DNA from: Varroa destructor
Lineage: Eukaryota > Arthropoda > Arachnida > Mesostigmata > Varroidae
DNA: 64,000 nucleotides
Assembly (NCBI RefSeq): GCF_002443255.2
Contig: NW_019211454.1
Span: 28,039,565-28,103,564, forward strand
Reading direction: 5' to 3'
Each line of letters starts with the position of its first letter. The stretch's first letter is position 1. Shown one piece after another: positions 25,580-61,764 of the stretch. The translations under genes were made by a program, and so were the position numbers. Under the pieces are notes generated by a model. The model had not been told where the DNA came from. It was given only the letters and a program-made list of their open reading frames with translations, and did not search any database.

Positions 25580-27667
25580 ATGTATCGCGTGTGTGCTTCC
25601 GTGTGTCGATCGCCGGGCCGCTTATATTTAATTGACGCTCGGAGTGGTCTCCATCAAAACGTAAAAGCCTCTGTCCAAGGGATGACATCACAAAAGAAAC
25701 TTTACGGCCGATCCCATGACGATCATCATGACCTCACTACCTCGGTTGGTCATCTACATTCTACTTTTTTCAGTTATTTCTCGTTAATGATTGAACATAT
25801 TTTAAATCTTTGAATGCTTACTAGTTATTCGTCTTTTTATAAAGGGTCGTCAGCGAAGATTGTCAGCAGGAAGTTTAAAGAAAACGAAGTGTTTTTTCGT
25901 AAGAACTCTGCAGTTTGTGCCTCGTTTGTTGGGCGTTACTATTTCAAACTCTAATGTCATATTTTATGGCAGTTAACCATCTTTAACACTACTGCTACCA
26001 TATTGCTCCTAACGAAAGGCCGACCGTCCTCATTACCTACAAGATTAGAGACCCCTCCCTTAATTAAATCTTAACCTAAATTTTTAATTGATACATTTGG
26101 TCACGATTCTTGGGTGCGGCTGTTTAAATATACCACCTGCTGTCTTCTACTTGTAACGCGCCGTTGGTTTTCAGGCTGGCAGGAACCTTCAGTGATCGAC
26201 ATAAGCATACTCAATATTATTTCCTAGGTTCCCAAGAATGCTAAAGCAAATTTGGCAGCCGTTATCGACTCATTCGAGGGCTAATGCTTTTAATTGATCA
26301 TTCTACTTTTCTGGAATCAAAGTTGAGCAATTAGCTGCCTTTATATTCACCTGTACCGCGCGTATGAGCTATCGTTATTTGAAAAGTAACCGACATCTTC
26401 CGTGTAAATATTATATTTCGTTTTAAAGACGCAGTCGTGCTTCGGTTAGTAGATAATAGCGTCGACGGTTTGGCCCTTTAAGCAGACATTTGAAATAGCG
26501 GTGCCATCTTTACATTAAGCTTGCAATAACTACATCAATAATTTAACATAAGCACAACTACCAGGTACGATTGGTTTACTTGTTTACGTACTGATCTCGC
26601 GTATGCCTTTGTTTTTCTTCTAGGTTTTCCAATATAGCATAGTGATTATCTGTTGCGCCAATACGCATGAAGTAGTTTTAGTTAGTTACTGCAAGTATAG
26701 ACCTCCTCGAAGTACTCGTTTTACAAGCTTTGCAAAAGTGAGCTGTGTTTTCATATGTGATATTTTGTATCTATGCAAAGGAAGCGCATCAGACTAATAC
26801 ACTGAGAGAATTCGGACTTAGTAAATCGACGCGTCCTACTGAAAGTACAGTCGTCGCTTCACTACAGCTCGCTGGGGTTACAGTTCGAGAGTTACATAAT
26901 GGTATGTTTTGTAAGGAGGACTATTGAAAATTAAACACAATTCGAGCTAAAACATGGTTTTGATAACAGACACGGATGCTGTTGAAAGCATGTGCATGGG
27001 ACATAATGTATTACAATTGAATATCCTTTGCGGAATCATATTTTCTATGTTGCGACTACGACATTTAAACAGGCTTAATAATTATAAGCTGGAAGACACG
27101 CTTGCTGTTGAGTTTCAGACATTATTGACAATGGAACTACAGCCTCAGTCAACGCTTCGTCGGCTAAGGTATTTCCTCTTCGGCATTATCAGAACATAGC
27201 AGATATTCAAACAAGAGTATGGCATTGAATTGGATGAACCGATGAAGGCAGGAACTTGTTCTTGATTGTATAGCTGGCATATGTACATAAACATTAGCAC
27301 CCAATGGCGACGTTCACTGCCTGATATATCTACCCAACAGCATTTTATTATATAATTAGTTCGAGCTTAAAAAGAGGCATCAAATGTCAGATCCTTTTAT
27401 ATAAATAATTACAATTGTTCTAGAATTAGAATTCTGTAGACGTCAAATAATTTAAAGCCTCGTTTAAAAGGGCGTATGTTTTATAGTAGAAGATATAATA
27501 CTAAACAAAGATAAAGATGTTTTAGAAGGTTTTGGCTGAACTTTTAGGTGAGAATAGACCCAGCGACTAAACTTGATAGCAAGGTAAATCATACTTTGAA
27601 AGAAGGACGAAGACCCATAAGCGGCGCTGCAGTCCGCCGCTCTCGGATATTACAAGATCAGGAAACG
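25580..27667 (+). CDS. POLRMT: Copy A N-terminal exons 1-4 (diverged, uncertain)
   Basis: Exon 1 starts MYR and shares the start context G(C)CAATGTA(T)CGC with copy B. Its basic N-terminus, without acidic residues near the start, suits a mitochondrial presequence. Exon 2 has the same length as in copy B (121 bases) and shares the HQT..L..FGLS pattern. Exon 4 also has the same length (120 bases). Copy B's last 35 codons of exon 1 have no visible counterpart in A. Exon 3 aligns at GGAACTAC but then loses frame, so A must splice out early: the AAG/GTATTT donor at 27168 is the best choice, and AGA/GTATGG at 27216 the alternative. Both keep phase 0. Confidence 0.6.
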
Positions 27668-30600: not shown

Positions 30601-33600
30601 ATGCCAGAAATAACTGATTGCGTGCTTTAGGATACACATAATAATGACGTTGCCTGCTACCATTCTGCTGGACCAAGCTTAGCCTATCTACATGCGATCT
30701 GTCTTTGAAATTGGGTCTTATACCTCGGAATATAAATGAGCAAAAGATAAGTCAACAATGCAGCTAACAAAACAACTCATATATTGTTATTATGCAAACG
30801 GTATGAATAAACTCTTTTCGGTGATTTCATTCATCATAATATTCAAACAGCGTTACGTAAGCGGCATTAGTCCGAATAATAGTCCGACAGAAACCTGGTC
30901 TTAAGCTTGAAGTGCTGTATCAGCTCTGAGAACTTTCCTAAAACAACAAAAACCTGCAAATATCACCTTTCTTCTGTTTAACACGAAATAAGTAAAATCA
31001 CGTATAAGGAAAACCGGATTAATAATAACATCTTATTATTTGAATTCTTAAATCTCGTTTTAGATCTATAATTTGCGGTCAACGCGTCCCGAACGTGAGC
31101 TTTGGGAAGATTTACTTACTCAGCATTCGTTGTGGGGCCCCACTCTCGAAGAGTTAAGTCCGGTTCCGTGGCCGAAGTCGGTTATTACTGGGGTGGGCCG
31201 TTTCCTTTACCAGGCAATCCGCAACCTTCAACTAGACATCGATATTTTAAAAAGTGATAACAGGTCAGGTGTACTGGTCAATGCTATTTATGTCGTGTTT
31301 AAAAAGAATGGCTCTTCTTTTTGTAAAAGAGAAGAATGGAAACCCCATCCTATGCTCGCCAAACTATACCGTGAAGCTCAGCTAGAAGATCTTCGTTTCG
31401 ACATCAAGGCAAGAATTTCGTAAATATGTGCATTTTTTCTCTATTCGTTCGTCATTTTGACATATCCTTGAAGCACTAAGAAATGGTGCCAAGGCCTGTC
31501 AAAAAAAGGGTAACTGATAGCTAGAGAAGGTTTTTGGCCCGATATTAAGTTGAAAACATTATACAAATATAGTTACGAATACTGTATTAAATTAAACTAA
31601 ATGTATGTCATACATACCTTGTTGAGCTATAAATACTTTGGCTGATAGCATAATGTATATAAAAAAATAAACTAGAATTTCTTTGGATTATAGTGGATAT
31701 ACTTCCTAGTATAGCAAATAGAGTTTTACTGGATTACACTATCATTGCCACCATTATCGCGGGACCTAATGCGAAATTAAAACCAGATAAAGCTATGCTC
31801 TCCTCCATGAAAGCGCGTCCAAACCGTTAAGATAATCTAAGGCAGTGGGCTTTCAGTTATTGTCGATATTGTTGCATATGACGGTTCGTCCTTACTGATA
31901 CCGTTGAAACGATATTCTCAGGCTCTCATTAGTTAATTATGCAATCTTATAAACGCAGTTTACTTTATTGCAGACAGTCCCAATGTTGAGTCCTCCGAAA
32001 CCGTGGCATAATCGAGAGGATTCGCCTTTCCTTGTGTCTCAAGTAACTATGATTCGAGCTCCCAACGAAAGAGCTTTTCAGAAAGACAAGTCGATACGCG
32101 GAGATTTCTATCTGGCGTTTGACGCACTCAATGCTCTCTCCAGATGCCCTTGGATCATCAATAAGCCCATATTGCAATTAATTACTAAGGTAACCCTTTT
32201 TTGTCGACAAGAAATGGTTAGCCTATATTTACTAATTGAATAATTCGGCTAGTACTGACCACAAGCAGATAGCTTATACACATTGGTTAATTTGTGAATG
32301 TGCGAATAATAGAAAGGTATTTAGAAAATAATGTACACTAATCGAATTACTTGTAATGGATTCTTTAAAGATATGTGTTATACAGAGTTTCCAAATACGT
32401 ACTTGTTATGCTTTAATTGATCAGACATCATTTCCCAAATCAAATTTTAAATAAAAGTAGAGGATTATGGTAATTTATTTTTTTAGGTGTTTTTGAACAA
32501 TGGTGATCCTAAATTGGGTATTCCACAACCATCAGGTGTCCTTCCGATATCACAGCCGCTCAACTCGGAACCAAAGAGTGAAGAGCATAAAGTACGTAAG
32601 ATTATGAAACAGGCGTCAATGAAATCGCTATCAACACTGATTGACTAATTTGATCATTAGCATATGCCTCGTAAGGGACGATGACGTATTAAATGTTCGA
32701 GTTTTTTCGCCTGGTATTGCCATTAAACATTACTTAAGATGCCTGACTGCTTCCACTACAAAATGAAGCCTATGTATACCGGTTTTCAAGCCTGAACCAA
32801 GTCTAATAGTGGACGAACAACTTATTACTGCACCATCACGGGGACAAGCCGACATTATCTGAACCTTTTTATTTCGATATTTGTGGTAGATAGTTTTACT
32901 GCTTCACCCCGTTGCTCCTTGTTCTAGGCTGAGCCGTTTTCTATCTCTCTGTCGAACCTTCTCGAAATTCATCGCACCATGGATGACACACGGTGGCGTA
33001 TAGGGTGCACATGTCTAAAAAATAGGATGAAGAATTGACCGTTCCCCCACACTATATATTATGTATTTTAGAAAAATACACTAAATATTTCAGCCCCCTA
33101 TTAATCGGCTGACGAGATGGCATCCAAAAAAAGAGAACGCCATTCCCAGACGTAGGGGCACCTGGCCCCAGTAGGGCTCTCTAGTTGGTTTATCGGGTAG
33201 CGGCATCATTATTGGCGTCCTTCGTCTCCTTGCCATTAGAGGCTTCCTTAATTTTAACAGACTTGATGAGACTGACGAAAACGGTGACGGCGTATGTTGC
33301 GTACGGCGAAACGACCAAGAGGAGGGAAGGCCTCGACACACATAGTGTCTGGGGGCTCGAGGTCGATCATAGCGGCATCACTCAACTTAATAAACTCCAC
33401 AGTATCCTAGAGCTTCATCTTATTTTGTCCAGTGGGACCATGAAACGCCCCAAGTCATTTCGCAAGAAAATCTAAATTTATGGAAGAAATTATGATATGT
33501 AACCCAGATAATACAGATATGTAACCAGATCACTGTATGAGAAGTACTGCCTCGGTTGAAAAAATGAAGACCTGTGTACGTAAAGGAAAACTTTTGTCTC

Positions 33601-36600
33601 GCTCTGAAAATAAGATGATTCTGAAAAAAAGAACAGATTGTAATAAGCTGAATAATAAATATTTCAATTAATTATTCTTGATAGATTTTCAGGTGTAAAG
33701 TAGAATTAGTAGAAAATTTCTATGGTTGCACAGGTTTGAGAATATTTGTACAAAGCTAAGATCCTGGCCTTTTCTTTGGATAAATCTTAACTTTTTGAGT
33801 CTCAAATGAGTCTCAATACCTTAAGACGGGATAATAACGTAACATTTCTTCGCACAATCGAGTCTTAAGCAGGACTCAAAAGATAGTTAATATATATATA
33901 TATATTAACTAGGTTGTTTGTGGACATCATAATAAGTACTCGACCGTTAAGTATAACGTACCCTTGGTACTAACGACAAGGTGATAATGCATGTTTTTGA
34001 AGGTATCCAGTATTTGCAATCGATAAAGGCCACTGCAGCAAAAGCTGTTCTCGCTTAAAAATTAAAAAAAAAATTCTTATTATTGTTGCCTCCTACTTTC
34101 AATCATAAAATAAAATGTTGTCAGAGAAAAAAGTAGATCAATTTCGTAATGTCTACATGCGTGTCCTCACTTTCGTTATCGAGGCTGTATTTCTTGTACA
34201 ATCGCATATTTTGCATAAAAATATTATCTGGCAGATTTTTTTTGGGGACCTATAGGTGTTGAATAAATATAGGCATCTATTGGCCCTTTAAAAAAAATAT
34301 TTACGTTCACTGAATTCTGTCGGGGCTTCAAAAGGTCGACCTCAACTTTTAAAACATATAATTTATTGTGGAATTATATAAATATAGATACGCGCTTGTT
34401 TATTTTCTTATTCCAGGCCACGAAAGAGCTCGCAACTTACCACCGGAAATGTGCGGAAGCGTACTCGCTATGGTGTGACATGCTTTACAAATTGTCGATT
34501 GCTAACCATTTCAAAGATACTACCTTCTGGTTTCCGTACAATTTAGATTTCAGGTGATACTATCCTGCACGAAGTTACGATGAATGAACTTAACATTTAG
34601 ATGAACAATACCGTTAAGAATCTAATGCAATTCGAGCTATTTTTAGTTTGATGACTCTGTTGTTAAAGTTACTATGTTGAGGTCCTTGCGAAAGTATTAT
34701 TTTACGTGATACTGGAATTAAGATCAGATTGGGTAAACACTGACATATAGAGTGTCGGGCACGACGTTGAGGTTGGAAAAAACTGAGATGAATCATACGG
34801 AATGGCGGAAAAGTGCAATGGACAACAAACAGTAAACATTTCTCACGATGGTCAACTGCGGAAGTTATGATTTGGTATTAAAATAGAGTTGATCTTATGC
34901 GTGGCGATTTCAACAGAGGTCGAGCGTATCCATGCTCATCGTACTTCAATCACATTGGCAATGACGTAATGCGTGGATGCTTGATGTTTGCTGAGGGAAA
35001 ACCTCTTGGACCGAATGGATTAAATTGGCTCAAGTTGCATCTGATTAACCTGACTGGATTTTTGAAGGATCGGTCAATTTCTAAGAAACTCAAGCACGTA
35101 AATGAAATTATAGATGATATATTGGACTCAGCTGATTATCCGTTTACCGGCAAAAGGTATGTACCTAGTTGAGTTCTTAATGGAACTTCTGTAAGATCCA
35201 ATGCAGTATACAAACCGGTTAAAAAGACAGGGCTTGGTATCTCCTGAGGCAAAAAACTATTTTTCTTGAAAGTATCATAGGATTGTAAGCACTAGTTGTA
35301 CATTGCTTTTTCCAATGTGTATTGTTTCAAAGGTGGTGGCAAACTTCAGACGAACCGTGGCAAACGTTAGCTGCCTGCAAAGAAGTGGCCAACGCTCTAC
35401 GCTGCGACAAAGGCCCCTCTGAGTACGTATGCCACTTTCCCGTTCATCAGGATGGCAGTTGTAATGGTCTACAGCATTACGCCGCTCTGGGAAGGGATCT
35501 TCAAGGCGCAGAGCAGGTTAGTGTAGAATGTATATGCAACAGAGCAACATCTGAACATATCAATGTGAGGCAAGTTCCAGTCTATGACAAGCCTCGGATA
35601 ACTGAACCTCTTCTCCTAGGTGAATCTCAGGCCTATGGATCTTCCTCAGGATGTATACAGCGGAATTGCTGAGGTTGTTGAACAGGAAAGAATGCGTGAT
35701 GCTGAGGACGGAGTGTTTATAGCTCGGATTCTTGAGGGGTACATCAAAAGAAAGGTACAGATAGGTTATAAGTCATATGTGTTCGACCTGGCACAGCTGG
35801 ATTACATTTATGGCTTCATACCCATCACTTTACACCTTGTGAAATGCTAAGAGTATTTTTCTAGTCACATTAGCACGATTTGATAGGTGGTTAAACAAAC
35901 GGTGATGACTGTTGTATACGGCGTAACTCGGTATGGTTCTGAACAACAAATACTGCGACAGCTGCAAGACCTGGCTGATTTCCCACAGCAATACGTCCAT
36001 GCTGCAGCTTCATATCTTGCCCAAAAAGTTCTTTTCAGGTTTGTATCTGTTTTTTAATATTAAAGGGTCCTCCGATGAAAAAATTAACTAATGCGCCGGA
36101 TCTACGTAGGTATGCACGTTTGTATTATGTAACATTAATCATCTGTGGATGGTATAGGTTAGCAGACGCCCACTGATAATAATTTTTTGTTAAATGTAGG
36201 ATTATTTGTGCTCGATAGTTTTTCTTTTTCCATAACTTTTTGCTATATTTTCCTTCACTATAAAATAGTCTTCGTGAAAAGTTCACTGCGACTAGACAAA
36301 TCCAGGACTGGTTAGCTAACTGTGCGAAGTTAGTGGGCAAAATCAGAGGCCAGCCGATCGACTGGATAACACCTCTCGGACTGCCCGTTGTACAGCCCTA
36401 TTTTCTACCTGTCAAGAAAAGGTACGTATTTCCCATAGTTGTAAGACTGATTATGGTCTCTGAAAACTGGAACAAACCCTCCAAATCATGTATAACAGCT
36501 TCGAACGCGCTGCTTATAATTTTTGACGCAACTTGTTACTGTTAATGAACTATGTTTTTTGTACGCCACAGTGCTAAAAAAATATTCTTGATAGGCAAAA

Positions 36601-37385
36601 GATCATCTCGTTTAGCAACCCTATAGGTTATTTTATGTTTCAAACATGGAAAGCGAACTCGGCTGATATAGTCCATTTTAATGCGCGCATTGCATCTTAT
36701 TTTCGCATTATTTTAGGTTTAGAATTTTCTACCGCTTTGCATGAATATTATCCTTTTTACAGGTCGCCAGTATCGTTTGGGGAAAATCTTTACAAAAACT
36801 ATGTCGACTTTTGGGATCACAGCAGCAAACCCAATGTAAAGAAGCAGAGAAATGCCTTCCCGCCTAATTTCATTCACAGTATAGATTCGAGTCATATGAT
36901 GTTGACAGCAATTCATTCACAGGCAGCCGGCATCAGTTTTGCGTCCGTTCACGATTGTTTCTGGACGCATCCGTCTACGGTGAGCGTATTCTACGTCTGT
37001 TCGCTTCCTGTGCCGTAATTACGGCTCGCCAATTAGTGTTTAGCACCATAATCGATATCATCATGCCCGAAGTATGCAAAATGATGTACATCACCGTCCG
37101 TTACGCCAACGATTTACTCTAATTTTATATTTTTTCTTTCTACAGGTAGAGACTATGAATCGGCTTTGCCGTGAACAGTTTGTAGCTCTTCATTCAGAAC
37201 CGATCCTGGAAAATTTGTCGGAATATTTTGTGCAGCGATTTGGCTTTCTTGACTCTGAGGTTACTGGAGATGACTCTCGTTCAGATATTGTCAAGAAAAA
37301 GTTTAATGAAGCGTTAAGGAAGGTTCCTCCAAGGGGTGAATTTAACCTTAAAGAGGTCCTTGATTCGGTGTACTTTTTCAGCTAG
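25580..37385 (+). CDS. POLRMT: Mitochondrial DNA-directed RNA polymerase (POLRMT), tandem copy A
   Basis: Single-subunit T7-like polymerase that transcribes mitochondrial DNA and makes replication primers. Exons: 25580-25744, 26781-26901, 27119-27168, 27548-27667, 27885-27988, 28332-28419, 28721-28900, 29047-29268, 29670-29864, 30010-30122, 30499-30571, 31064-31408, 31974-32189, 32487-32591, 34417-34553, 34917-35156, 35333-35516, 35620-35754, 35887-36038, 36269-36421, 36763-36979, 37146-37385; about 1184 aa, in frame throughout. Motif A ([18 protein letters not shown], Asp about 865), motif B ([14 protein letters not shown]) and motif C ([10 protein letters not shown]) are intact; the C-terminus ends in YFF plus one residue, as in the family. 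Exons 5-7 give PPR-like helices. Exons 1-4 were found by aligning to copy B; exon 1's end and exon 3 are uncertain: exon 3 may run to 27216, and homologous sequence beyond is frameshifted. Exons 5-22 are secure. Confidence 0.9.
31409..31973 (+). other. GC-AG intron 12 of copy A
   Basis: The exon ends FDIK with AAG followed by GCAAGA; no GT donor fits the protein alignment. The acceptor is TTTATTGCAG before ACAGTC, giving TVPML. The same position in copy B also has a GC donor. Confidence 0.85.
32592..34416 (+). other. Intron 14 of copy A
   Basis: 1.8-kb intron between GTACGT and TATTCCAG. It is much longer than the same intron in copy B (315 bases), mainly because of the eEF1A retrocopy and surrounding AT-rich sequence. 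Confidence 0.8.
33085..33420 (-). pseudogene. eEF1A processed pseudogene fragment (3' end) in intron 14 of copy A
   Basis: On the minus strand from about 33418 the reading gives [16 protein letters not shown], then [16 protein letters not shown], which matches the C-terminal domain of elongation factor 1-alpha. A frameshift follows. In the next frame the text continues [17 protein letters not shown] and then [13 protein letters not shown], with stop TAA at 33192-33190, the usual arthropod eEF1A ending. Sequence to about 33085 would be 3' UTR. An in-frame stop near 33407 (just after the ATG at 33418), at least one frameshift, absence of introns and 5' truncation indicate a retrocopy, antisense to its host gene. 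The family match is strong; the exact borders are not. Confidence 0.8.
35385..35529 (+). repeat. Gene-conversion tract, copy A member
   Basis: Partner of 51599-51743: 143 of 145 bases are identical, including silent positions and the start of intron 17. Divergence resumes abruptly on both sides. Confidence 0.9.
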
Positions 37386-37516
37386 TGTTATTGACCTAAT
37401 ATTACCAAACCTTTTTTGCGTATAGACTAAATATTTTGTGGGATTATATTCATTTACTATCAAATTCGTTTAGCAAAATGGCCCTTTGTGTAAGAGAGAT
37501 AAAAATGAGGTTCTTT

Positions 37517-37564
37517 AAATACGTATCTTAAATTTTAACTAGGTAAAATTTGAGATACGTATTT
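37517..37564 (+). repeat. Stem-loop in the 3' flank/UTR of copy A
   Basis: Arms of 21 bases (AAATACGTATCTTAAATTTTA and its complement) with one mismatch around a 6-base loop, beginning 132 bases after the copy A stop codon. It would fold strongly in the transcript. Its role is unknown. Confidence 0.75.
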
Positions 37565-37866
37565 TATTTAATTAACGTTCATTTATTAAGCAGCTCTGGG
37601 GTCGTGATGCGTAATACATGAAAATTTCGTGTTCAATTTAGGATGCTTGAACTATATATATATATTTCCAGTCACTTAAAGAAACATCCCGATACGTGGA
37701 GATGTCTTCGACCAAATTGTTGTAGAAGGACAACACGTGCTCAGTGGACCTCGTCGTCGGCCAAATGGTCAATTTTAATTGTAAAATTATATTCTGTGTA
37801 TCCTTTGGCAAGAATTTTTGGAGTGTATTTGTTCCAGTTTTAATGCCTTATTATTAGCATATGCAT

Positions 37867-37872
37867 AATAAA
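37867..37872 (+). promoter_or_regulatory. Possible polyadenylation signal of copy A
   Basis: AATAAA about 480 bases after the stop codon. It is a candidate only, since such hexamers are common here. Confidence 0.25.
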
Positions 37873-39519: not shown

Positions 39520-39890
39520 CACGCAACACTCGTTTCGCTGTAGACTAGCGAATGCGTTCATTGTGAGCTGTGACTGGTCAGCTGGCGAGCGCGCTGTTTT
39601 GGTTTTCATGGACCGGTTGTATTCGTTTAGATTTCGGAGGGTCCTAGGAGAAGCAGGTATTGCACTGTAGAAGAGTGTGACCGAGTCAACGGTCCTTGTC
39701 ACCACATTTGAGTAACATGTGTCTGTGTTGAAAAACCGTGCTTTTTTTCTGTGGATGAAGGCTCTGTGCATTACCTCCAGTGAGTTTAGTCTGTACCAGT
39801 TTTCCTTTGTTAGCAATGTTTGATTTTGTTGCTGATAGATCATCTATGCGGCCTGTAGTGGGTGCGCGGAACACGTGAACCCGCCGACGT
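39520..39890. repeat. Dispersed repeat, copy with GCGTTCATTGTGAG core
   Basis: This segment shares the core at 39550 with similar cores near 19096 and 24685. The flanks are also partly alike: a GGTCAGCTG/GATCGGCTG segment here and near 19.1 kb, and a late GTGGG..CGCGGAACA segment that resembles 24.91 kb. It looks like a degraded family of mobile elements of unknown class. Confidence 0.45.
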
Positions 39891-44100: not shown

Positions 44101-47100
44101 CATTGTTTTCGTAAACAATATGCACCACTGGTTAGACACTTAAACTTGACTATAGAATGTTAATTACGTTCTCTAAAAGACGAATAATCACCGTAAATTG
44201 TTTTGTATATTATTTCACAGACTTGGAAAGGGAGGTCATCACCCAATACCGACAGGCGTATACAATTCGCTACTATCGGGATATGCCAATACGGGAAACT
44301 TTTCTGGGGTACGTCATAAGCTTGTTATTTTACGTTTATTACGGTACACAAGGCCTTTCTGGAATTCGTCAGCGGCAGATCAAATGTAAGCTGTATGGTT
44401 ATGTAAATTGAACTTTAATTCCAATTTGTAAAGCAGTGTCATACTTCATTAGTGATACCACACTATTAATGATTTACTTGTTCTTATTTCTGTGACAGGC
44501 AATGATGATTCGACGCATAATGGCTGACTGTGGCGTTCCATTTGACTCAAGCACGTTTTCCTATTTGCTTGCGGTCAGCAAAGATCGAGACGCGAAGTTC
44601 ATTTCTAAGATAATTAGCATGATGTTCGAGAAAAAAATTACATTTGAACAGCTATTTCAGAAAACTGTATTCACCAAGGTATAGTTAATATAGTTTTTTT
44701 TAACAAGGACAATTTTCACTCTGATACATTGACCCCGTTACCTCCGGTTAGAACCCAATGATACCCAAAAGCATTTTACAGTAATGGATTTTAAAGATGC
44801 CTTAAAAGTTAATTTACTAGGAATTCTGACCTGAAAAAGTTAAGTTTATAAGTTATTTAATACAAGACTGAGCGATATCTAATGAACATAGCAACAGCAA
44901 ATATCTGCCAGAATATTAGGCGAATTAAATGCTAGCTAATATTTTTCGTAGCGTTTATTGGTGCTTTTTAGGTTCAGCGTGAGAATGCCATCAAAGCAAT
45001 TCGTAAGGTACAGGCAGATTTTGAGGTACCAGCTAAGACGTTTCCGATGAAGTACACTTGTGATCTTCTGCAGCATCTGAACCAACGCGGGATAGTTAGA
45101 CCCAGCCCAAATGAAGCAAAAAACTTTTCGTTAAAACGAATGGCTGACGGCGCAAGGGAACAATGGAACCGCGAATTAAATATGCTGGTTAAGGTAAAAA
45201 TACGTATGTGGTAAAATAACTGCGTTAAATAACACATAGGAATATAATGAATGAACGTTATATATGAATATATTAATCAAAGCTAACATTTTTATTTGTA
45301 AAGTACATTTATTTACAACAGTTTTTGCTTTTGTATGTTGCCTATTCCACATAACCTTGATGTTGTCAAACATGGCTAAGTTAACATTTGATATTCTTAT
45401 TTCATTTGAAATTAGCCAAACCCTATTTGCAATGGTTTTTGCCAAAATTAGTTATCTTTAAAATTTATATTACATTGTACCATTGTGCGTAACGAATTTG
45501 TTAGTCAGAACCTTTTTTTAACTAATTACAGATAAGATCAGTAGTTGCGTCTAAGGAACCGACTCCTTATGTGAAATTTCTGCGCGGTCAGGTAGCAGCC
45601 CTTGAAGAAAAATGGTCTGATGATATTCGCCAAGCCTTTAATCGAGAGCTACGTAACTTGGAAAATCATAAAAAATTGAAAAGTGGAATGACCCTTTACC
45701 CTTACCTTCGAGCACTTGACCCAAAGGTGATCTTCTTCGATATACTGATTCGTGATCGCACGCGATTACCATTATGTCCTCTGAGAACTCACTGTTTTTC
45801 TAGATGTTTCTGTGCAGCTGGCATTTCACAGAATTGCAGTCGCGTTGTGTAAATAGTCACATATTCATATTTAACGGATCGCTGACTTAAAGCGGTATAT
45901 CTCTTTTAAATTAAAGTGTTCTTGCAAACAAATATGTTTTTGCTTTATCACGACAGATATGTATATAGATACCTTCATAATCAACCAATTGAATGCGTTA
46001 TCTTCACTGTTATCAAAATAATCAGGCTACCGTAACTCTACTGTTGCATGAGATACGCACGATGGCCCTTTCATCGGAGACGTATAGTCCTAGCATGAAC
46101 CAGCTCAGCGATCAGCTTGGTCAACGAATGAATGATTTGTGAGTACTCCATTCAGTTGCCCATTAGACATATTCATACAAAATGTCCTGAAAATTGTTCG
46201 GAAAATCCATTCGCTTGGCGTAACAGGTACGTGTCACGTTGTATTCTATAAGGAAAAGATAAGGCTCTTATCTGCGTTATCGTATACATTAATATATAGA
46301 GAAACTGTCGATAGTCAACGTTGTTTTGCTGCACTTTAATGCTTCCGTTTAAACTTAATATTAATTACAAATCTTATCGTTTCATATACATTAATAGATT
46401 TTTCGGGGAGTCTAAACCTAATTATAGTGAGACTAAACATTTCAAACGGCAAAATCATAGTTAGTTCTTCAAAAAACAGAGAATTATTACTTGTAGTACA
46501 ATTCTGTCTGCAGTAACATGCACTGATTAACTCAGGGAAGTACTTTCATTCAGATTTCGAAACGTTTCTTTTTCTCACGTTTTTCAGGTATGTCATCAGT
46601 GCCAAAACGAAATATGGAATTACCCCTAAATTACAAGCAATCTACGATAGTTATCTTGAGGTATAAAGAAAAAATAAAATCTAATATATATATTCACGAT
46701 TTCCTCAAATTGTTATCCTATTCAATATCCCTGGATGGTCTGCCTTGAACCTATTTCTGATGTAATTGGTCATGTAAACTACTTTTCCAATTGGCCTGAA
46801 TTACGAGTGTTAAACTATTGTAAATAAATTTCCAAATCTTATTTCTTAAGATACGTACCCGACCGAAATTACGCACGTAATTTCGATCGGGTACGTAATT
46901 TTTTAATTGAACATGTCTACTGTCTTCTAAGGTTGGCAATAGTTTTCGTATCTTTCAAATCCTTGCGAGTTATATTACAATATCAACGAATATATAGATA
47001 GCGTGTACCAATTATTAACTGAAAGAGAAGATAAAAACGTTCTAAGCGCATGTGCTCACCGAAGTTTCACTAGTAAAAGTTATGTGGTGTTCGAAACATA

Positions 47101-47176
47101 ACAAACTTTATAGTTAGCAATATATCTTCGTACTGAGGCAGAAGCTATAACTGATCCCGATACAAAACAATGTCCT

Positions 47177-47213
<37 letters not shown>

Positions 47214-50200
47214 AATTTTTTTTACCTATTACAACGACGAATACTTTAATTTTGCTTTAGGCTTACGATTCGGAGAAAAGCTGCCCAGACCGGGAAATTT
47301 GGCAAGATCTGCTTAGCCGTCATTCATTATGGGGTCCCACTGTGGAGGAGCTAAGCCCAGCCCAATGGCCAAGATCAATAACCATTGGTGTGGGCCGTTT
47401 TCTTTACCAAGTGCTCCGCAACCTTCAAATAGACATCAACATTCTAAAAAGTGATGCAAAGCCAGCCGTAATGGTTAATGCTATTTACACTATATACCGC
47501 GACCATCAAAATCATACGGGTAAAAAGGAAGAAGCGAAGCCCCATCCAACGCTCGCCAAACTGTATCGTGAAGCCCAATTGGAGCACCTATACTTTGATG
47601 TCAAGGCGAGTATTTTGAGTCTTCAGCTTAATTATTACTTAGCCAGTGCTAAAAGTCGTTTGTACTTCTAGCTTACATTTTAAAGTACATTGCAGTTAAT
47701 GTCATATGGATATCAATAAATTATTGTAATTTTTTAACTGAAGTTCAATCTATTTGTTATCTGTGTACTTAGTATCCTAACGAAATTATTATGCGGCTGT
47801 CACTGAATCATTATTAGCCTGTCCCATATTCTAAATGGAAAGAAGTTATACATATATATTAGGTGATCAAAAAGTATTGACGGTTTTTCTGCCTAGATTG
47901 CTGTAAAGTCATATGTATCGTTGCATCGGATGGTCGTTGGTGGCATTTGAAAACCGAGCTTTGACAGAATAAATGCACCAAAGTCGTTTCTCATCGTTCA
48001 CTTCTTCACACTTTTATAGAGCGCCTTGAAAGTGAGTGAAATTGCTCTTATTATGTTTTTAGTTTTATCACGATAAAAACACAAATGCACCGCAGACGCA
48101 TAAAAAATGAAGGCTGTTTATGGTCAGAATGCGTCGAAATAAATGGTCTGAAGAGGGTTCTGCCGTTCACGTACGACAATAATGTACAAAGACAAAAATG
48201 TGCTCCATAACCTGCATACAAGGAAGTCCTATATGTTGGCAGGATTGGAAAGAAATCGCGCATTATAAGTTACAGCGACCTAGTCAGATGATTGATTCGG
48301 TCTTTATTATCGACGACTAACAGGATTACAACCAGCCATTGAAAAAATCGATCGCCGTCTTCCTCTGTAGTGATGTCAGACCACATACACAATTTAGTTG
48401 CCCAGCAGAAATTGAGAGAACGTGGATGAAAAATTTTAATGCATTTGCCCTCTAATCAAGATATTATACCATCAGACTATCCTCCTAACTAGACTAATTT
48501 AGTTCCCATGACAGAATGCAAAAGTTATTTTTCACTCTCCGTAATTCAGAAACCATAAAATTTCTATAGCGATGGTATTATCATGTTACCGAAATTTCTC
48601 AAGATGTTTTATATCATAGTTTCAATATATTGTCTTACCATAAAAAATATTTGCTTCAATCATGGCGTAAAAACTGTCAAGACTTTATCCAAAATCTAAT
48701 ACCTTTAGGTGCGCATTACATATGTTACGATCATGTTATCCTTTTTGCTTGTGTTGATCAACAAATGCCGATTATCAAGCAGTAAACATAATTGGTGTGC
48801 AGTTTGCCTAATGAAAAGCTACCATTTGGAACAACGTCTGTTTGTTGTACAATACAGCCTATGCCGAAATAAGATATAAGATTACGAAACAAACACGGAG
48901 AACGTTTTTCGTTAGCAAACGAACTCTGCTCAAAAAATTTGAAAAGACTGATTCGTTCGCAGACGAACTAGGGTAGGGAAATTTACCAACTGGACGACGA
49001 AGTCGCAACAACGTTGTTGTGCTAAACAGCGTAGATGCCGATCCAATGATTTTAATATGACGCCGTGACCATTAACTCGGCCTATCAAGGAGCATTCTGT
49101 TGTTCATTTTTAAGCAAGGGTTGGACCGAGTTGAGAGCAGTGGATCCAAACAGCCTTTGCTTCCAATAAACGGGGACGACTATATTGCGTACGAAGCAAT
49201 CAATCTATTTGGAACACGGTTCCCCTGCCAATTGATCCCGCCGCCCGGCGGTCGTTTCGGTACTGTTTTTGACTCCTCTCGATTTCTTCCTGTGGGCCTA
49301 TGTCAAAGATACGGCTCTTGAAACAACGTTAAAAATAGCCCACGACCTGGTACATCTTTGTACGTGAACTGATTGGTAAGGCTGGTCTTAACGTTGCAAA
49401 ATGACGCAAGACGGATCGGTTATGCAAGTGGTTTCTGGGAGGCCATTGGGTTAACATTATTTTGTATCACTAGCGCAAATTGAACCCATTAAGGTAAAGC
49501 ACGTATATATAGAAGACCTTGAAAATGAAAAACAAAAGTCTGAGTTTGAATTAGTGGGTAAAGTAAATTTCTTAAATGTAAGTTCGGGCCGACCCGTTTC
49601 GATGTTTGAAAGCTTTAAAAACTCTTGTTATGATTTGAGTTACTCATCAGTTGTTTCAGATGATGTAGTTGCTGAGAGTGGGTTGGATCCATTTTGAGTA
49701 ATGGCGACACCCCTTTGGTAGTGATTATTACTTACAGGGTATTCTTGATCTACCTACTTACTTAATTGATGCTTAATCGGTACTACCTACTTAATTGGTG
49801 TATGCTCCTGAATAATCCATTGTCAATGTAATTGAAATGATTAAGCCCGATTATTATAATGTTGCAATTTCTTATTCTGTGTATAATGTCCTGGAAGTCT
49901 TCCCGTTTTTTGCAGATGATCCCAATGCTGTGCCCTCCCCGGCCATGGTGTAATCCAGTGGATTCACCGCTCCTTCTGTCTCAAGTGCCTTTTATTCGGC
50001 TTCCATACGAAGGAAGCAGCCAAAGAGAGCTCGTGGAGAAGGCTCCACGTGAAGATCTATTCCCATCGTTTGACGCACTCAATGTTCTCTCGAAATGTCC
50101 ATGGATCATCAACAAGCCTATGTTGCAGTTAGTGACTGAGGTAACTTCATAAGATTAGTAGATGACGAGCGTGCCATTTGAACAACATGCGAAACTTTGA

Positions 50201-53200
50201 ACAAAGTTTTGTGAAGGTAAAAATTTCCACGATTTGTTAGTTGTTATTTTTGTAGCTGTTACTAAGTTGTTTGGCGGTTTTTTTAAATATATTTTTATAT
50301 ACTCGCATGTATACCATCCGATCTTGGTGAAATTTTTTTCAAGTTATATATTTCAATCTGTACAATATTAATTTGGAATATTTGTGACTTTGTCTATATT
50401 AGGTGTTTTTAAATAATGGCAACCCGAAGCTCGATATTCCTCAGCCACCTACCGTTATTCAAATGCCACCCTCTATCAACTCAGTATTAAAACAAGATAA
50501 ATATAAGGTATGTGAGTACGAGGTGTAATAAAAATCAATTAATAAAACCACTTCAGTAATGCACCTACAAGAGAAATAGAAGGGATGAATGGTAAAAGCG
50601 TAATGCTAAATCATCACCGCTATATTAGTCATTTGTTTTTATTACTACTATTATCATTGACGAGAATTATAAGACATTTCTAAAATGCAGCTGACTTGAT
50701 TAGTTATCCAATAAGCGACTATAATTAAGCCTTTAAAGTGTTAATACCGTACAGAAAAATATAATTTCTAATAGAGAAAAAGCCTAATCTTAGGATGTGA
50801 TTGTTATTTGATTCCGTTTTAGTCCATTAGGGAGCTTGCTTTATACCATCGCAAATGTGCGGAAGCGTACTCGCTATGGTGTGATATGCTTTACAAGTTG
50901 TCAATTGCCAACCATTTCAAAGATAACATCTTCTGGTTCCCGCACAATATGGACTTCAGGTAATGTATTTTAACAAGCGAATTATTTTCCTACTATTTCG
51001 GCGTAATCCTTTGCTTAGCTTAATGAGTGTATTTTTAGATAGATAAATAAGGTAAGAGTTAATAGAGAAGTGAGCGCGCCTACGATCCATGTCTATCTTT
51101 CTCTAAACTTAGTAAACGTAGATCAACAGCTAGTGCTTCGTAGGATTGTTAGCAAGTAGGCTGTGTTATCAGATAATTGATTTTATATTGTGTGATTTAA
51201 CAGAGGCCGAGTGTATCCGTGCCCCCCGCACTTTAGTCATATTGGCAGTGACGTCATGCGTGGTTGTTTGATGTTCGCCGAGGGCAAACCGTTAGGACCT
51301 AAAGGGTTAAATTGGCTGAAGTTACATTTAGTCAACCTGACGGGCTTCTTGAAGAGACAGTCTGTTGCTGACAGACTTAAATACGCAGAGGAAATTACGA
51401 GCGATATATTGGACTCAGCAGATCATCCGTTTACCGGCAGGAAGTACGTATCTTATTAATTGACATGAATTTTTTAATATGCAATGAACCATAAAACAAC
51501 TATGATGCTAAATTTATGTACGTCCCAAATTCCTACCTCTACACAGATGGTGGCAAAAATCAGATGAGCCGTGGCAGACGTTAGCTGCCTGTAAAGAGGT
51601 GGCCAACGCTCTACGCTGCGGCAAAGGCCCCTCTGAGTACGTATGCCACTTTCCCGTCCATCAGGATGGCAGTTGTAATGGTCTACAGCATTACGCCGCT
51701 CTGGGAAGGGATCTTCAAGGCGCAGAGCAGGTTAGTGTAGAATTTATTCGTATATTATTCGAATTAAGGATTGTCGTTAAGGGTACAATTATGTTAGGCA
51801 TACTTGGCATGAAGATTTGCCAAGGAAGAACGAAGTCTATCATAAAGCTATTTAGGTAACTGCTCATATGCTTCCTCATGTAACCAAATACACAAACATT
51901 CTAATTAATTTTTTCCACTTAAGTCTCGTCTCATTTCTAAAATATCTGTCGAGTAACTGACCTTGTGAGTTGTAAAGGGTTATCTCAAGTCAATTTTGAT
52001 TTTAAACTAAAGGCATCAGCCCAGAACGAAGTGCTCATGGAATAAGTTGTCCATTAAAACATCCGTGTTTGTCAGCTTATTCTTCATAGAAAAACGTATT
52101 GTAAAAATTCTAATGTGGAACTTTAATTTTGCAATTAAAACATCATTTTATAAATAAGATAAAATATGGATAATTCTGTAGATTTTTATATATGTATCTG
52201 GATGTATGTATGTATGCCTGTAAACAGCTGCCTAGCTCGACTAGATCTGTTTTTCATCTTCAGAGTGAACTAAAAATTAGGCACCTAACAATATGCCAGT
52301 TGTCTTCATTTGATATTAATTAATTTAATATGTACTAGTAATGGGGACTGCGGATATCTACCAACTGTGTTTTTCTAGGTAAATCTTCGGCCAATGAATC
52401 TACCTCAGGATGTGTACAGCGGAATTGCTGAGGTTGTTGAACGGCAAAGAAAGCAGGATGCTGACAGCGGAGTACTCATTGCGCAGATTCTCGAAGGGCA
52501 CATCAAAAGAAAGGTGCTCATTGAACCAAACTTAGGTATTGTTCATTCTTTTCGTATTAAACGGAACGTTAAAAATACTAAACTTTTTCAAGAATTTCAA
52601 ATTGACGCTGGTTCCATCGCAAGCGAATACGCTGCTGCAAAAGAGGCAGAAGCAAGTTAAGGTACAGCACAAGCGAAAGCCCATCCCATGCAAAAAAACA
52701 GTGCGGACTTCCGAGTAAATTAACACCGTCGAAAAGAGCGTGTGTATTGACCCTTCCGCTGTTCTGAAGTCGCTTAAAACTTGAAATCTACTCGATGTTG
52801 TTCGTCCCTCAGTTCTGTAGATAAAGAATCATGTGGATTCTGATTCTTCTCTGAGGAAAGGGCGCTTACCATCGAAGTAAAAATCAGTCGCAGAAGCGAC
52901 CGCTGGCTTGTTCACTATCCAGAGGATATGCCTATTAGGGAAAAATTTAATTTGTAACCAATGTACGGGTTCTAAATTTAATGTTCAGTAAAAAGACATG
53001 GCGCTGGCATACTTTTTCCGCGAAGGCGAAACCATTAACAAATAAGCTTGTTCTTGTGTTCCACAAAGTGTCGTATGACCACAGATAGATGGCATGTTCG
53101 AGGGAACGTCATACATCTTTAAGCGAGATGCTGTACCAGTTCATACTGGCCGGTTAGTCCTTGGGTGCCTGAACATATTTTGGACAAAGGACCCAAATTT

Positions 53201-56200
53201 GAATGCGCTGAAATGTCCGACAAATCTCATTTTGCAGCAACATCGACTGGCCGTCAAGGCTGTTTTGTATGATCAAAAAAAAAATTCCTTGAAACGATAG
53301 ATTTGGGTACCAAAGGAAGGTTGTAATCGACGTGAATGGGGATTGTATCGAGTAAGTATGTCTGTCAGAACTAATATTTCTATGACAGGCAAAAAAATAG
53401 TTAGCTTATCTGTCTTTACTTGGAAAGAATCTAAAAAAATTGACTGCTTTTGCCTCGTATATAGATATATATAGAACAGTACCATAGAGTGAAGTCATTT
53501 GTTAGCCTAAATTGCCATGCATGATGTAGCAAGTTATAAGCCATTCGCTAAAACATCACGTCTAGCACCAGAGACAGTAACCATTGTCCACCTATAGCCA
53601 TTGAGGTAAAAAAAAGTTCATCATAAACAATGCCAAGAGATGAATTCATTTGCGTGTTGATTCTACAGGTAGTTAAACAAACTGTGATGACAGTTGTGTA
53701 CGGCGTAACCAAGTATGGAGCTCAACTGCAAATATTGCGACAGTTGCAAGATCTGGATGATTTTCCACAGCAACACGCCCACATCGCGGCCTCATACCTT
53801 GTCCAAAAGGTGTTTTTCAGGTACTTAATTTTTCGAATCGTTGGCATTGGTTTGTTACTTCAACAAAGTGTCAGCTTTTGCTTCTTGATAAATTTTGACA
53901 TTCCCATAGGTAGCATCGACTGTGGGCTAAGCATACAACTGTGATTCCATATAACTAGAGTTAGAATTTTCATAAAAGTATTTAGGACTGCCAGTTGGGA
54001 CGTGGTGTATATAATTTGAGCCTAACTGGTTTATTTTTTTCAAAAATCCTTGTCACACTTTTTTTGATTATAAAACAGCTTACGGGAAATGTTCACTGCA
54101 ACCAGAGAAATCCAAGATTGGTTTACTAATTGTGCTAAGCTAGTGGCGAAAATCAGATGTCGGCCAATCAACTGGGTGACACCCCTCGGACTTCCCGTCG
54201 TCCAGCCCTACTTTGTACCTGTTAAGAAAACGTACGTAAACAACACGTTTTACAAGTTCGAAGCCATTTTAGCACTTCACATAGTTCTGGTGATTATAAA
54301 TGCCTCCAAATTTCAATTTAGGAGTTAACGCGTTCATCATTTTCATCTAGTCTTTAAGCATTGCTTCAGAAACTGGCTCCCAGCACGAAACGAAGTGTGC
54401 TTGAGCCAGAATTCGAACCTGGATCACCATGTGTCCCCTAAATATAGAAAGCAAACACGTTATCCACTGCGCCATTACGGAGCCTTAGTTCAGCAGCTAA
54501 AATGCATAAAATGCGTTTTGCATAATTCTAATAGCGTACCACTTTCTGGCCACCTATGCCTTCTAGAAGGAGCAATGTAATAGGTTTTCAGATCTGTTTC
54601 AGCCATGCGTCAAGTAAAAACACAGCCTAGAAAAGTATCTGCAAAGATTTTGAATACGATGGTTTGGATGGTTTTTTGCTTACTACTGAAGGCTAAGATC
54701 TAGTGTTCTTTAATATTTTTTTCGTCCGTGTACTAATGCCATAAAATACGTAGAATGGTACCCTCAGTTTTTTGTGTAGCTTTATATTGATTACGCCAGA
54801 TTATGAGGTCAACAATAATGAATGCATCGGTTTGCCCGTACACACTGATGGTTGGGGTGATCCGCGTTCCGCATGTTAAAACATACATGTAGGCAAAGAG
54901 AGTCCTGTGCCGATATGGGACGTTTTTATAGAATGTGCGTATTTATCAATCCTTGCCCAACCTTTACTATATCATCTAACAATTTAAAAAGGAAAAACCG
55001 TCCAAAAAGATTCAATCTAACAAACAGTAAAAGTGGCAATGAACGACGCCATCTCTACTTCTTGCTACATGTGGCGGAATTGTCGAAAAGTCATTGATAA
55101 TAAGGGTCGTATTTTTGCAAATTAATTCGTGTGCTATGAGCGGCTGTATCACAGCTGCTATGGACACACTTCAACGTATAACATGGTCAACAGACTTCAA
55201 TCCTCTATTTTTTTTAGCTTAGAATTTTAAGTTCGGTGTTGCGGTTAAACATTGCTTTCTTCCGTTTCTAGCTACCTCGAGTACGAAACAGATTGTATCT
55301 GCGCACTGTTCTGGATTTAAATTATTTCACGTGTCTTCCCAGTTAGTACTTAACCACGTTACCTCCTATGTCATCGTAAGAACTGGCATAGGTGATCTAC
55401 CATAGCAGGGTCATGATCGGTTGGGCATGGTAATTGTGTCGGCTAAAGAACATTGCTGCGACGGATTTTCAAAAAAAAAAAAAGAGAAACTGGATGTAAA
55501 CACTTTGGTAACCCAAAAACGGATTGCCGAAAAATGAGAAACAATACCTAAAAAGAAATCTGAACTGCTTTCAGCAAATCTCTCGGGCTAGTAATATTTT
55601 CAGGAACGGAGGCAATCCTAATTCGTGTGATTCGTAAGAGAAGTAATAAAGAACCGTCAAATGGACAGGGATGTCAGCAGATGTCTGTAATCCTGTAAGT
55701 GATACCCGTGCATGTTAACGAAGCGTCAAATTTTACATGCACTCGAGAGGAAAGGTATTCTTAAAGCTCTTCAGGTGGCACATAATGAACAACACATTGA
55801 ACCCGCAGAACAAGGCCGCGGCTGGACAGGTTAAGGATCTTCCTAAAAAAAAGTTCCTTTTGTCTGAGAAAAAAAAAGATAATAAATAGATCAGTGCTCT
55901 CGAGTGGCGTCAGCGCTGAAGATATATATTAATTTTAAAACCAATGCATATGTCCGCCTGGTATCAGTGAAACTGGTTAAATCCACATCATTTCATCGCT
56001 GTTCCAATAATCAATTGTGCGTTGAAATAATCTAGCTAAATTTTGAGACCTGTTGAAGCAAGACATTTGGAATAGTAGAATTCCTGGACAGGAGTGCATT
56101 GACAGATCAAAACCGATCAAAGCGTGAAAGCCTATGACTAAAAAAAGTTATCGGATAAACTAAGTTAACGGCAACGATGACTCGGTCAACCTATATTACA

Positions 56201-58404
56201 AGGGCAGAACTACGGAACATACGAATTCATTCGAAGATATATAATAGGTATAAGCACGGTAAAATTGTCTTCCGCCAGGAGAAATATACGTCCGAGATAG
56301 GAAGCAGAACCATTGGCAGTGCCCCAATTTTCAGTTAAGAAGGGAATCCCATGCGCGCCAGTGAAAGATAAGAAGGGAATCCCATGCACACAAGTGAAAG
56401 ACAGGAAGGGAATCTTATGCACGCAAATCAAGGATAGCCAGTGAGTTGAATGGTGATGAAATGTGTGACGCTGATCGTGCAAATATTATACTGGGCAACT
56501 TCAACTCACTTGGCATTAAGTAAGAGTCAACGAGTTGTTTCTCAAGGCAAAATCAAAATACTGAAAAAGACAGTGAAAACGAGCTCGAGAAAGCTTTATT
56601 TTTCAGTTGTTATGGTGCCGATGGCTTTATCTAGTTCGTGGCGAATTCCACAATTATATATGGCGACAAAGCGGCCTCAGGAAATATTCTACGTTTGAGT
56701 CTACGCGACAATGGCTTTATCGAAAACGACCGAGTCTTTCCTTCCACTATGAACATCATGGAGGCATGAAGCAGTTACCTTCAATATCCGCGGAGTCCCC
56801 GTAGTAGCTTTCGTCCATCCGTTTGTAAATCGAATCGGTAGCAGCGAACCTAGGTGGAACAAGCTGGTCCAGATTCTTCGCCGACGACATTTAGATTTAC
56901 GTTCTTCGTTTTTAAGTGCTTCGCCATGCACTTTGAATAAAATAGCCACATGACATGGTATTATACTGACAGCGAAATGCGTGGTCTAGGGACCTCAACG
57001 TCAAAATATCTTAAACACGGTGGCAATACGTCGCTAATCCAGAACGCCAGAAGTGTAAATAGAATCGTAGGACTAATTATAGTCACTAACTATACCCTGT
57101 CTTTACATGTAATTATTTGATTGCTACGAGATGCCGTTGCCCCCGTGTCAGTGCTCAGTGTTAAATATAAAACTAGTTAGGGAGGAAAAAGCTCTCACAG
57201 AATGTTTAAAAGAAGGTTCCCTTAGAGACATGACATTTGTTGCGATAAAGCTCTCTATAATGATATTCTAAAATTTACTGGACAAAAATATGCTTAGTAC
57301 TGATTGATGAGGATACAATGCAGAGCTAGCCGAAGTAACTTTCACTAGTACTTTTCTACAGTTATAAAAGTGCATTAAATAAACAGTTAAAATAGATAGA
57401 AATAGAAATCTGTATCAATAGTGTCTTCGTGTGGCGTGCTTTGTTTCGGATAGTTCGCGCAGGCAACCAGATAATGCTTCATCTTGCATTTGTGCGTCAA
57501 ATAAAAAGTATCATATTGAACCGTGTTGTGAACAACTCTTTTTCTGCCCTATAAAGCAATAGAGATTAGACTACCTCCTTGTGCACTTATGCCCCTTCTA
57601 AAATGAGTTCGGCTGCTGCAATCAGCCGTAGGGCAGGAGTATTACTCCTCTACTGATTACATAGCCTCAATTTGTCTTGGCTTCTTTTGGGTTTCTGTTT
57701 TATTCTAGATCGCTGGTGTCTTTCGGAGAATCAATCAAAAAGCAATACATCGATCTTGGTGACCACGACGCTAAACCCAACGTGAATAAACAGAAGAATG
57801 CTTTCCCACCGAACTTTGTTCACAGTCTCGACTCTAGCCACATGATGCTGACGGCGATTCATGCGCAGGCAGCAGGAATCACCTTTGTATCCGTTCACGA
57901 CTGTTTCTGGACGCATCCGTCTACGGTGCGTGATTTATGGTTATCTATTAATTTAGCTGTTTATTGTCCCGCGTAAAATGGCGCTAACGTATTCTGTTAA
58001 TGTTATTATGCTCTATCCGTGGCATTCGAGTTAATATCTCAAACAAACAAGTGATACCAAGCCTGTTGGAGAGGAAGTCGTGATGACGCTAAAGTAACGA
58101 AAAGGGAAGAACAAGAAGACAGGATTAGTCGATCTTTTAACTCTGCGTTTTTGCAATTCTTCAGGTGGATATCATGAATCAGTTATGTCGCGAACAGTTC
58201 GTAGCCCTTCATTCGTACCCAATCCTTGAAGATTTGTCGATTCATCTACAGAAACAGTTCGGTTTTCCTACAGCCGAGATCCTCAAAGACAGTTCTGTTT
58301 CAGACATTATCAAGCAGAGGCTTAACAAAGTTTTGAGACAAGTTCCTCAAAAGGGTGAATTTGATCTAAAGGAAGTCCTCGACTCTGTGTATTTTTTCGG
58401 CTAA
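41144..58404 (+). CDS. POLRMT: Mitochondrial DNA-directed RNA polymerase (POLRMT), tandem copy B
   Basis: Exons: 41144-41422, 42304-42424, 42771-42937, 43372-43491, 43969-44072, 44221-44308, 44499-44678, 44972-45193, 45532-45726, 46026-46138, 46588-46660, 47261-47605, 49916-50140, 50403-50507, 50823-50959, 51204-51443, 51547-51730, 52379-52513, 53669-53820, 54079-54231, 57709-57925, 58165-58404. They join in frame to 1264 aa, the family's usual size. A basic N-terminus ([16 protein letters not shown]) suits mitochondrial import. PPR-like helices are near 230-350. Motif A has Asp945, motif B Lys1014 and Tyr1022, motif C His1176-Asp1177; the protein ends YFFG. All 21 introns share position and phase with copy A. 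Exon 2 must use the inner donor (AAGG/GTATGT at 42424); the later GTAAGC donor would create a stop. Exon 13 is three codons longer than in A. Nothing suggests loss of activity. Confidence 0.93.
46852..46897. repeat. Near-perfect 46-bp palindrome in intron 11 of copy B
   Basis: Arms of 22 bases (TACGTACCCGACCGAAATTA CG and its complement) with a single mismatch and a 2-base centre. The core is GC-richer than the surrounding intron. It would extrude as a cruciform or fold as a hairpin in the pre-mRNA. It may be a tiny foldback element. Confidence 0.9.
47181..47208. repeat. (TA)n microsatellite
   Basis: 28 bases of TA repeat in intron 11 of copy B. Confidence 0.9.
47859..48699 (+). mobile_element. 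Degenerate mariner element with terminal inverted repeats
   Basis: The left end TTAGGTGATCAAAAAGTATT and GACGGTTTTTCTGCC pairs with the right end GGCGTAAAAACTGTC and AAGACTTTATCC..TCTAA as inverted repeats of about 35 bases with several mismatches. Both ends are flanked by TA, the target duplicated by mariner elements. Inside, near 48372, the plus strand reads DVRPHTQF, the catalytic DNARPHT-type motif of mariner transposases. The frame is broken by many stops and the element is about 840 bases, shorter than the usual 1.3 kb, so it is an old, internally deleted copy. Confidence 0.85.
48810..49470 (+). mobile_element. DDE transposase relic (Tc1/mariner superfamily, second type)
   Basis: Broken translations on the plus strand give an N-terminal piece starting [13 protein letters not shown] at about 48820, like the helix-turn-helix start of this arthropod transposase group. 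A C-terminal piece [14 protein letters not shown] at about 49270 matches the [13 protein letters not shown] motif around the third catalytic acid. Several frameshifts and stops lie between them. No terminal repeats were found. It lies about 110 bases downstream of the mariner element in the same intron. Confidence 0.75.
51599..51743 (+). repeat. Gene-conversion tract, copy B member
   Basis: These 145 bases match 35385-35529 in copy A with only two differences, and the identity crosses the exon 17 donor into the first 13 intron bases. The tract contains catalytic motif A. Most neighbouring exons are far more diverged. Confidence 0.9.
52640..53330 (+). mobile_element. DDE transposase relic in intron 18 of copy B
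   Basis: Near 53000 one frame reads [13 protein letters not shown]. At 53106-53220 another reads [15 protein letters not shown] and later [11 protein letters not shown]. This order and spacing fit the second catalytic motif (QQDGAPAHT) and the FWxKD..PDLNxLD region of Tc1/mariner-superfamily transposases. Frameshifts separate the pieces. No terminal repeats were located. It explains why intron 18 is 1155 bases here but 132 in copy A. Confidence 0.7.
54370..54485 (-). mobile_element. tRNA-derived SINE
   Basis: Minus strand: starts GGCTCCGTAATGGCGCAGTG GATAAC (A box region, tRNA-Arg-like) and continues to CCAGGTTCGAATTCTGG (B box with a 5-bp T stem). The 3' acceptor side (CTCAAGC) does not pair with the 5' end, and there is no proper anticodon arm, so it is a SINE head or tRNA pseudogene, not a working tRNA. 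The body continues with CACTTCGTTTCGTGCTGGGA. Confidence 0.75.
55262..55385 (-). mobile_element. Probable degenerate second SINE copy
   Basis: It shares in order several blocks with the SINE at 54370-54485: ACGAAAC..TGT, CTGGATT.., CACGTGTC, and CACGTTACCTCCTATGTCAT matching CACGTTATCCACTGCGCCAT. Divergence is high, so the call is tentative. Confidence 0.4.
56337..56435. repeat. 33-bp minisatellite, three units
   Basis: Units 56337-56369, 56370-56402 and 56403-56435 share the core GAAGGGAATC(C/T)(C/T)ATGC followed by CAAGTGAAAGA-like sequence. Units 1 and 2 differ at four positions and unit 3 is more diverged. The unit length is a multiple of three and the minus strand is open across it, but no coding role is evident. 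Confidence 0.9.
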
Positions 58405-61739: not shown

Positions 61740-61764
61740 NNNNNNNNNNNNNNNNNNNNNNNNN
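61740..61764. other. Assembly gap (25 N)
   Basis: Run of 25 undetermined bases. The true gap size is unknown and may hide part of the minus-strand gene next to it. Confidence 0.99.

Follow-up and report, generated by a model that had tools for sequence, protein, structure and literature searches.

In textbook animal mitochondrial transcription a single polymerase works together with TFAM and TFB2M, and to our knowledge animals generally have a single POLRMT gene. The human system is described in these terms, as one polymerase acting with TFAM and TFB2M, and the account given of it places an AT-rich loop and an intercalating hairpin in the N-terminal domain of POLRMT and a contact with promoter positions -15 to -12 in its PPR domain (PMC7939475). 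Plants are described as carrying duplicated T7-like organelle polymerases in one nuclear genome, the RpoT family composed of RpoTm, RpoTp and RpoTmp (PMC3022604, PMC3895441), and, among animals, many duplicates of nuclear mitochondrial genes in Drosophila are reported to be testis-biased, COX4L being an example (PMC8950493).

The honeybee mite Varroa destructor carries two POLRMT genes in tandem, hereafter A (upstream) and B (downstream). Domain order and catalytic motifs are those of metazoan POLRMT, but the Varroa pair differs from it in that there are two genes, one of which (A, judged by its Varroa jacobsoni counterpart P0003) lacks a PPR_2 match and scores lower for RPOL_N. Two intact paralogues have been retained, as in a plant RpoT-type pair, although the mite duplication is a separate event, is in tandem and involves no plastid. 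As with the Drosophila duplicates, a housekeeping gene of the mitochondrion has been retained in duplicate, but those of the COX4L type concern another gene and arose by an RNA-mediated route, whereas A lies in tandem and has introns. The enzyme itself is known; what is new is A, an asymmetric paralogue of it. Tandem duplicates in Varroa were reported by Techer et al. 2019 (PMC6773775), in whose main text the word 'polymerase' is absent and in whose supplement the POLRMT pair may figure; no title or opening of an abstract among the matches listed, which covered the main texts of openly accessible papers, dealt with the pair.

The tandem gene pair

The window, by which we mean the whole stretch of 64,000 nucleotides that was analysed, contains the two genes in head-to-tail order, as a sequence-only reading of the locus had proposed with coordinates and counts that proved correct:

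25580 to 37385, + strand: POLRMT copy A, upstream; 22 exons, 1184 residues; the fast-evolving paralogue (spliced model, splice sites and stop checked)
41144 to 58404, + strand: POLRMT copy B, downstream; 22 exons, 1264 residues; the slow, ancestral-like copy
24938 to 25006, + strand: candidate extra 5' exon of A, uncertain; 23 codons, to which residues 1-23 of P0003 map with 22/23 identical; GC donor (GCATGC)

The spliced product of B is the annotated V. destructor protein P0001 over 1264 residues, without differences, and that of A differs from the annotated V. jacobsoni protein P0003 at 5 of 1184 residues. These public copies, of 1264 residues for B in V. destructor and 1208 for A in V. jacobsoni, bear the label 'DNA-directed RNA polymerase, mitochondrial-like'; separate rows for V. 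destructor A and V. jacobsoni B were not seen in the protein database, which was clustered at 90% identity.

The two genes have the same architecture. All 21 introns lie at matching positions and agree in phase (21/21); in each copy all 21 acceptors are AG and 20 of the 21 donors are GT. The exception in both paralogues is intron 12, which opens with GC, a non-canonical donor that is thus probably older than the duplication:

31409 to 31973, + strand: intron 12 of A, with a GC-AG boundary common to B
47606 to 49915, + strand: intron 12 of B, with a GC-AG boundary (splice-site check)

Exon lengths are equal in 19 of the 22 exons and unequal in exon 1 (165 nt in A vs 279 in B), exon 3 (50 vs 167) and exon 13 (216 vs 225). 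Exon 3, at 27119-27168 in A and 42771-42937 in B, is much shorter in A, with the frame kept. After splicing there are 0 internal stops in A and 0 in B, and the proposal of 22 exons each, 21 shared intron positions and phases and no internal stops is thus supported by the spliced models. The start of A may be either the exon at 24938 or position 25580: the V. jacobsoni model has an extra first exon mapping to 24938-25006, so that A may begin upstream of 25580, and at the 25580 start the residues MYRV of A are aligned to MYRM of B.

Judged from their sequences, both copies belong to the T7-like mitochondrial RNA polymerases, with a fold that is not in doubt. Among solved structures, mitochondrial RNA polymerase chains, the best-matching of which we take to be human, were matched over at least 900 residues with 703 bits by A and 805 bits by B; T7 RNA polymerase was also matched, more weakly. 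The Pfam domain RNA_pol (PF00940) scores 525 bits in P0001 (B) and 514 bits in P0003 (the near-twin of A), and RPOL_N (PF14700) 117 and 73.5 bits respectively, the cut-off being 30.1. PPR_2, from a domain that usually goes with metazoan POLRMT but is dispensable for T7-like catalysis, reaches 26 bits in P0001, below its 30-bit cut-off, and 16.3 bits in Galendromus; P0003 gave no Pfam match to it at E up to 1, the PPR region being still alignable between A and B at 43-50% identity. The strings that we take to be motif A, the motif B helix and motif C are identical in A, B, Tropilaelaps, Galendromus and Ixodes, in agreement with the sequence-only reading, which had held these motifs to be intact in both copies. 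Motif A lies in exon 17 (see below) and the other two as follows:

35887 to 36038, + strand: exon 19 of A, motif B helix (motif string)
53669 to 53820, + strand: exon 19 of B, motif B helix (motif string)
36763 to 36979, + strand: exon 21 of A, motif C, SVHDCFWTH (motif string)
57709 to 57925, + strand: exon 21 of B, motif C, SVHDCFWTH (motif string)

The same reading had seen in the pair a candidate for an undescribed system; this does not stand, since both genes encode T7-like mitochondrial RNA polymerases and B (in V. destructor) and A (in V. jacobsoni) are already in databases. With mitochondrial targeting in view, a direct count of the N-terminal 40 residues gives 7 K/R in each copy, with 1 acid in A (read from 25580) and 2 in B, and the largest hydrophobic moment of the N-terminus is 0.48 in A but only 0.29 in B. 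If A instead starts as P0003 does, an acid stands at residue 2.

Divergence of the copies and the likeness of exon 17

A and B are 60% identical as proteins over 1180 aligned codons. When exon 17 is left out, dS is 1.27, dN 0.30 and dN/dS 0.235 (Nei-Gojobori), a dS this high being approximate only. A dS of about 1.3 together with a dN/dS of about 0.24 points to an old duplication under protein-level constraint, and to neither a haplotype artefact nor a dead pseudogene. The ratio is not low throughout, reaching 1.26 in exon 3 (16 codons) and 0.94 in exon 6 (29 codons), but by these estimates the pair is under protein-level constraint on average. In a neutral simulation at 0.64 substitutions per site, which is half of the A-B dS, the frame was broken in 200 of 200 cases, with a mean of 49 stops, which puts the intact genes far outside what chance would leave. 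That A is a dead pseudogene is not supported, its frame and splice sites being intact and dN/dS standing at 0.235. In a blastn self-comparison (E 1e-5) the copies are alike in exons only, except at the flank of exon 17, and since synonymous sites are near saturation the pair is not an assembly duplicate; an assembly duplication or haplotype split was rejected on this divergence and on the presence of A in V. jacobsoni. Two further proposals made from the sequence are thereby upheld, namely that the divergent introns speak against haplotype duplication (the blastn likeness being confined to exons apart from the exon 17 flank) and that the gene was duplicated and both copies kept, the frames being intact, the constraint at protein level holding on average and the Varroa lineage being the probable setting.

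The two copies have evolved unequally, a point that the sequence-only reading had not made, just as it had not remarked on exon 17 (see below). Branch lengths in the tree are 0.66 for A and 0.21 for B, so that A evolves about 3 times faster, and in relative-rate tests changes were in excess in A with 5 of 5 outgroups (chi-square 15.0 to 50.6), the Tajima counts for A vs B being 180 vs 68 with Tropilaelaps, 102 vs 50 with Galendromus and 110 vs 58, 122 vs 57 and 112 vs 61 with three ticks. Divided roughly by branch length, which assumes equal synonymous change on both branches, dN/dS would be about 0.36 for A and 0.11 for B. Across 143 reference proteins, 217 alignment columns are near-invariant (conserved in 97% or more of them); the expected residue is replaced at 21 of these columns in A, 5 in B, 7 in Tropilaelaps and 13 in Galendromus, and four of the replacements in A (V748A, P752S, P753S and H754Y) cluster just after the RGR element. 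Identity between A and B, taken by window, is 19-57% up to B residue 480, in the N-terminal and PPR half, and 83-93% where motifs A, B and C sit; over the alignable windows up to the same residue, B and Tropilaelaps are 41-65% identical, so the N-terminal half has diverged between these two as well and change there is not specific to A. Loosened constraint and specialisation would account equally well for the fast evolution of A and for its altered conserved sites.

As to the age of the duplication, trees with ticks, Galendromus and Tropilaelaps group A with B and leave Tropilaelaps outside (support 92/91 and 92/92), and in an 11-row tree the A+B grouping has a support of 84/85, or 83/84 without exon 17. 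Forcing B together with Tropilaelaps cost 7.6 log units (p-AU 0.031) and forcing A with Tropilaelaps cost 7.1 (p-AU 0.061); the fork was drawn open once Galendromus was removed from the tree. The duplication probably took place in the line leading to Varroa once Tropilaelaps had branched off, this being the best reading of the trees rather than a decisive one. One Tropilaelaps protein was present among the matches listed (the best 120 of 4065 and of 3149), and a second copy there may thus have been lost or missed. The event most likely long preceded the split between V. destructor and V. jacobsoni, whose genomes are given as 0.38% divergent (PMC6773775), a figure at which few differences in A between the two species are expected anyway. 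Elsewhere, an apparent second POLRMT in Ixodes scapularis (P0009 and P0047) was discarded, the two rows being 99.5% identical over 574 residues and so taken as the same gene, and a single exon of A (115 aa, too short a query to carry weight) found none of 8 candidate short fragments at E 1e-10.

Exon 17, which carries motif A, stands apart from the remainder of the gene:

35333 to 35516, + strand: exon 17 of A, motif A; likely a conversion tract that takes in the start of intron 17; 94.6% nucleotide identity to exon 17 of B
51547 to 51730, + strand: exon 17 of B, conversion partner; 94.6% nucleotide identity to exon 17 of A

Nucleotide identity between the copies is 59-83% in the seventeen other exons compared, and the synonymous difference pS is 0.159 in exon 17 against 0.613 elsewhere (Fisher p 2.6e-8). 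The likeness continues beyond the splice junction: over the first 17 bases of intron 17, A and B agree at 16, and 14 of the 15 bases past the donor dinucleotide match, compared with 4 to 9 in the other twenty introns. Exon 17 and the first bases of intron 17 have likely been homogenised by gene conversion. Strong RNA constraint at the exon is a weaker alternative because the likeness extends into the intron. B was probably the donor and A the recipient of the conversion, since outside this tract it is A that changes faster.

Possible roles of the second copy

We lean towards an account in which B is the ordinary Varroa POLRMT and A a catalytically competent paralogue, born in tandem and specialised for a restricted setting or for a subset of initiation events. 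B would be the housekeeping polymerase, responsible for general transcription and priming, beside which A would have arisen by tandem duplication. Because the catalytic half is preserved in A and most of the change lies in the other half, we infer that A may still make RNA in mitochondria, with altered contacts to promoter and transcription factors; the catalytic half would have been held in A, the motif A exon especially and apparently through gene conversion, and A might work in one sex, in the germ line or at one life stage, or on some initiation events only. The testis bias reported for many of the Drosophila duplicates makes a sex- or stage-limited role the first idea to test, and A is possibly limited in this way. 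Annotation of the Varroa genomes by NCBI is described as drawing on both RNA-seq and protein homology (PMC6773775), so that a gene model alone is no proof of a transcript.

A competing explanation, not likely but to be taken seriously, is that A is redundant and slowly declining, kept by chance or for dosage while constraint relaxes, without a role of its own. The rate data are explained nearly as well by such a loosening of constraint without a new role: A has the higher rate, with 21 of 217 near-invariant positions altered, its domain scores are weaker and two short N-terminal exons have a dN/dS close to 1 or higher. Against this, despite about 1.3 synonymous changes per site between A and B, no stop, frameshift or broken splice site has accumulated where neutral simulation expects about 49 stops, the average dN/dS is 0.235, and A is annotated as a protein in V. 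jacobsoni, where the 5 differences in 1184 residues concern the protein only and few would be expected at a divergence of 0.38%. A further alternative, close to what the sequence-only reading had put forward, is a plant-like division of labour, in which the copies serve different promoters, or one primes replication while the other transcribes. The divergence of A and B does peak in the half that faces promoter and factors (by the functions assigned in PMC7939475), and duplication of RpoTm in flowering plants is described as having given RPOTp and RPOTmp (PMC3895441), but in plants the split goes with the presence of two organelles, a condition that mites do not share, and we find this distinctly unlikely. 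It is tempting to speculate more broadly on an animal mitochondrion with two polymerases, comparable to the plant case, in which B would be general and A reserved for separate promoters, for priming or for one sex or stage; as a whole, this picture is unlikely.

That A has lost polymerase function altogether and taken up another role, for instance in binding or regulation, in or outside mitochondria, seems very improbable. The four altered conserved positions after the RGR element (748, 752, 753 and 754 of A) and the missing PPR_2 match in P0003 would agree with it, but A retains its catalytic motif strings unaltered, and no part of the protein is better conserved than the catalytic half. The chance that the pair is an assembly artefact, made of two haplotypes or of a falsely duplicated region, is negligible: a 25-N gap does lie nearby at 61740-61764, though outside both genes, but the blastn likeness, the exon 17 flank aside, is restricted to exons, the two proteins differ by 40% and A is also annotated in V. 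jacobsoni. A mite with two long-retained polymerases offers a natural experiment that may show which of the functions of POLRMT, among them promoter choice, priming and tissue output, are separable. A deserves to be tested, since jobs that fall to one polymerase in other animals may here be divided. The experiment is within reach, Varroa being of economic importance and amenable to gene knock-down by RNA interference.

Other observations

Several minor features accompanied the analysis. Two palindromes, each about 91-92% self-complementary, occur at 37517-37564 (48 bases, between A and B) and at 46852-46897 (46 bases, in intron 11 of B), and a run of 25 N at 61740-61764 marks an assembly gap downstream of B. 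The most GC-rich part of the window contains, at 12199-14868 on the minus strand, a large open frame that encodes two bromodomains and a BET domain, presumably a gene of the BRD/fs(1)h type. Among the reference proteins, the predicted POLRMT of Mythimna separata (P0004) has its motif C segment of about 45 residues repeated at least 7 times, which perhaps reflects tandem exon duplication or an error of assembly or annotation.
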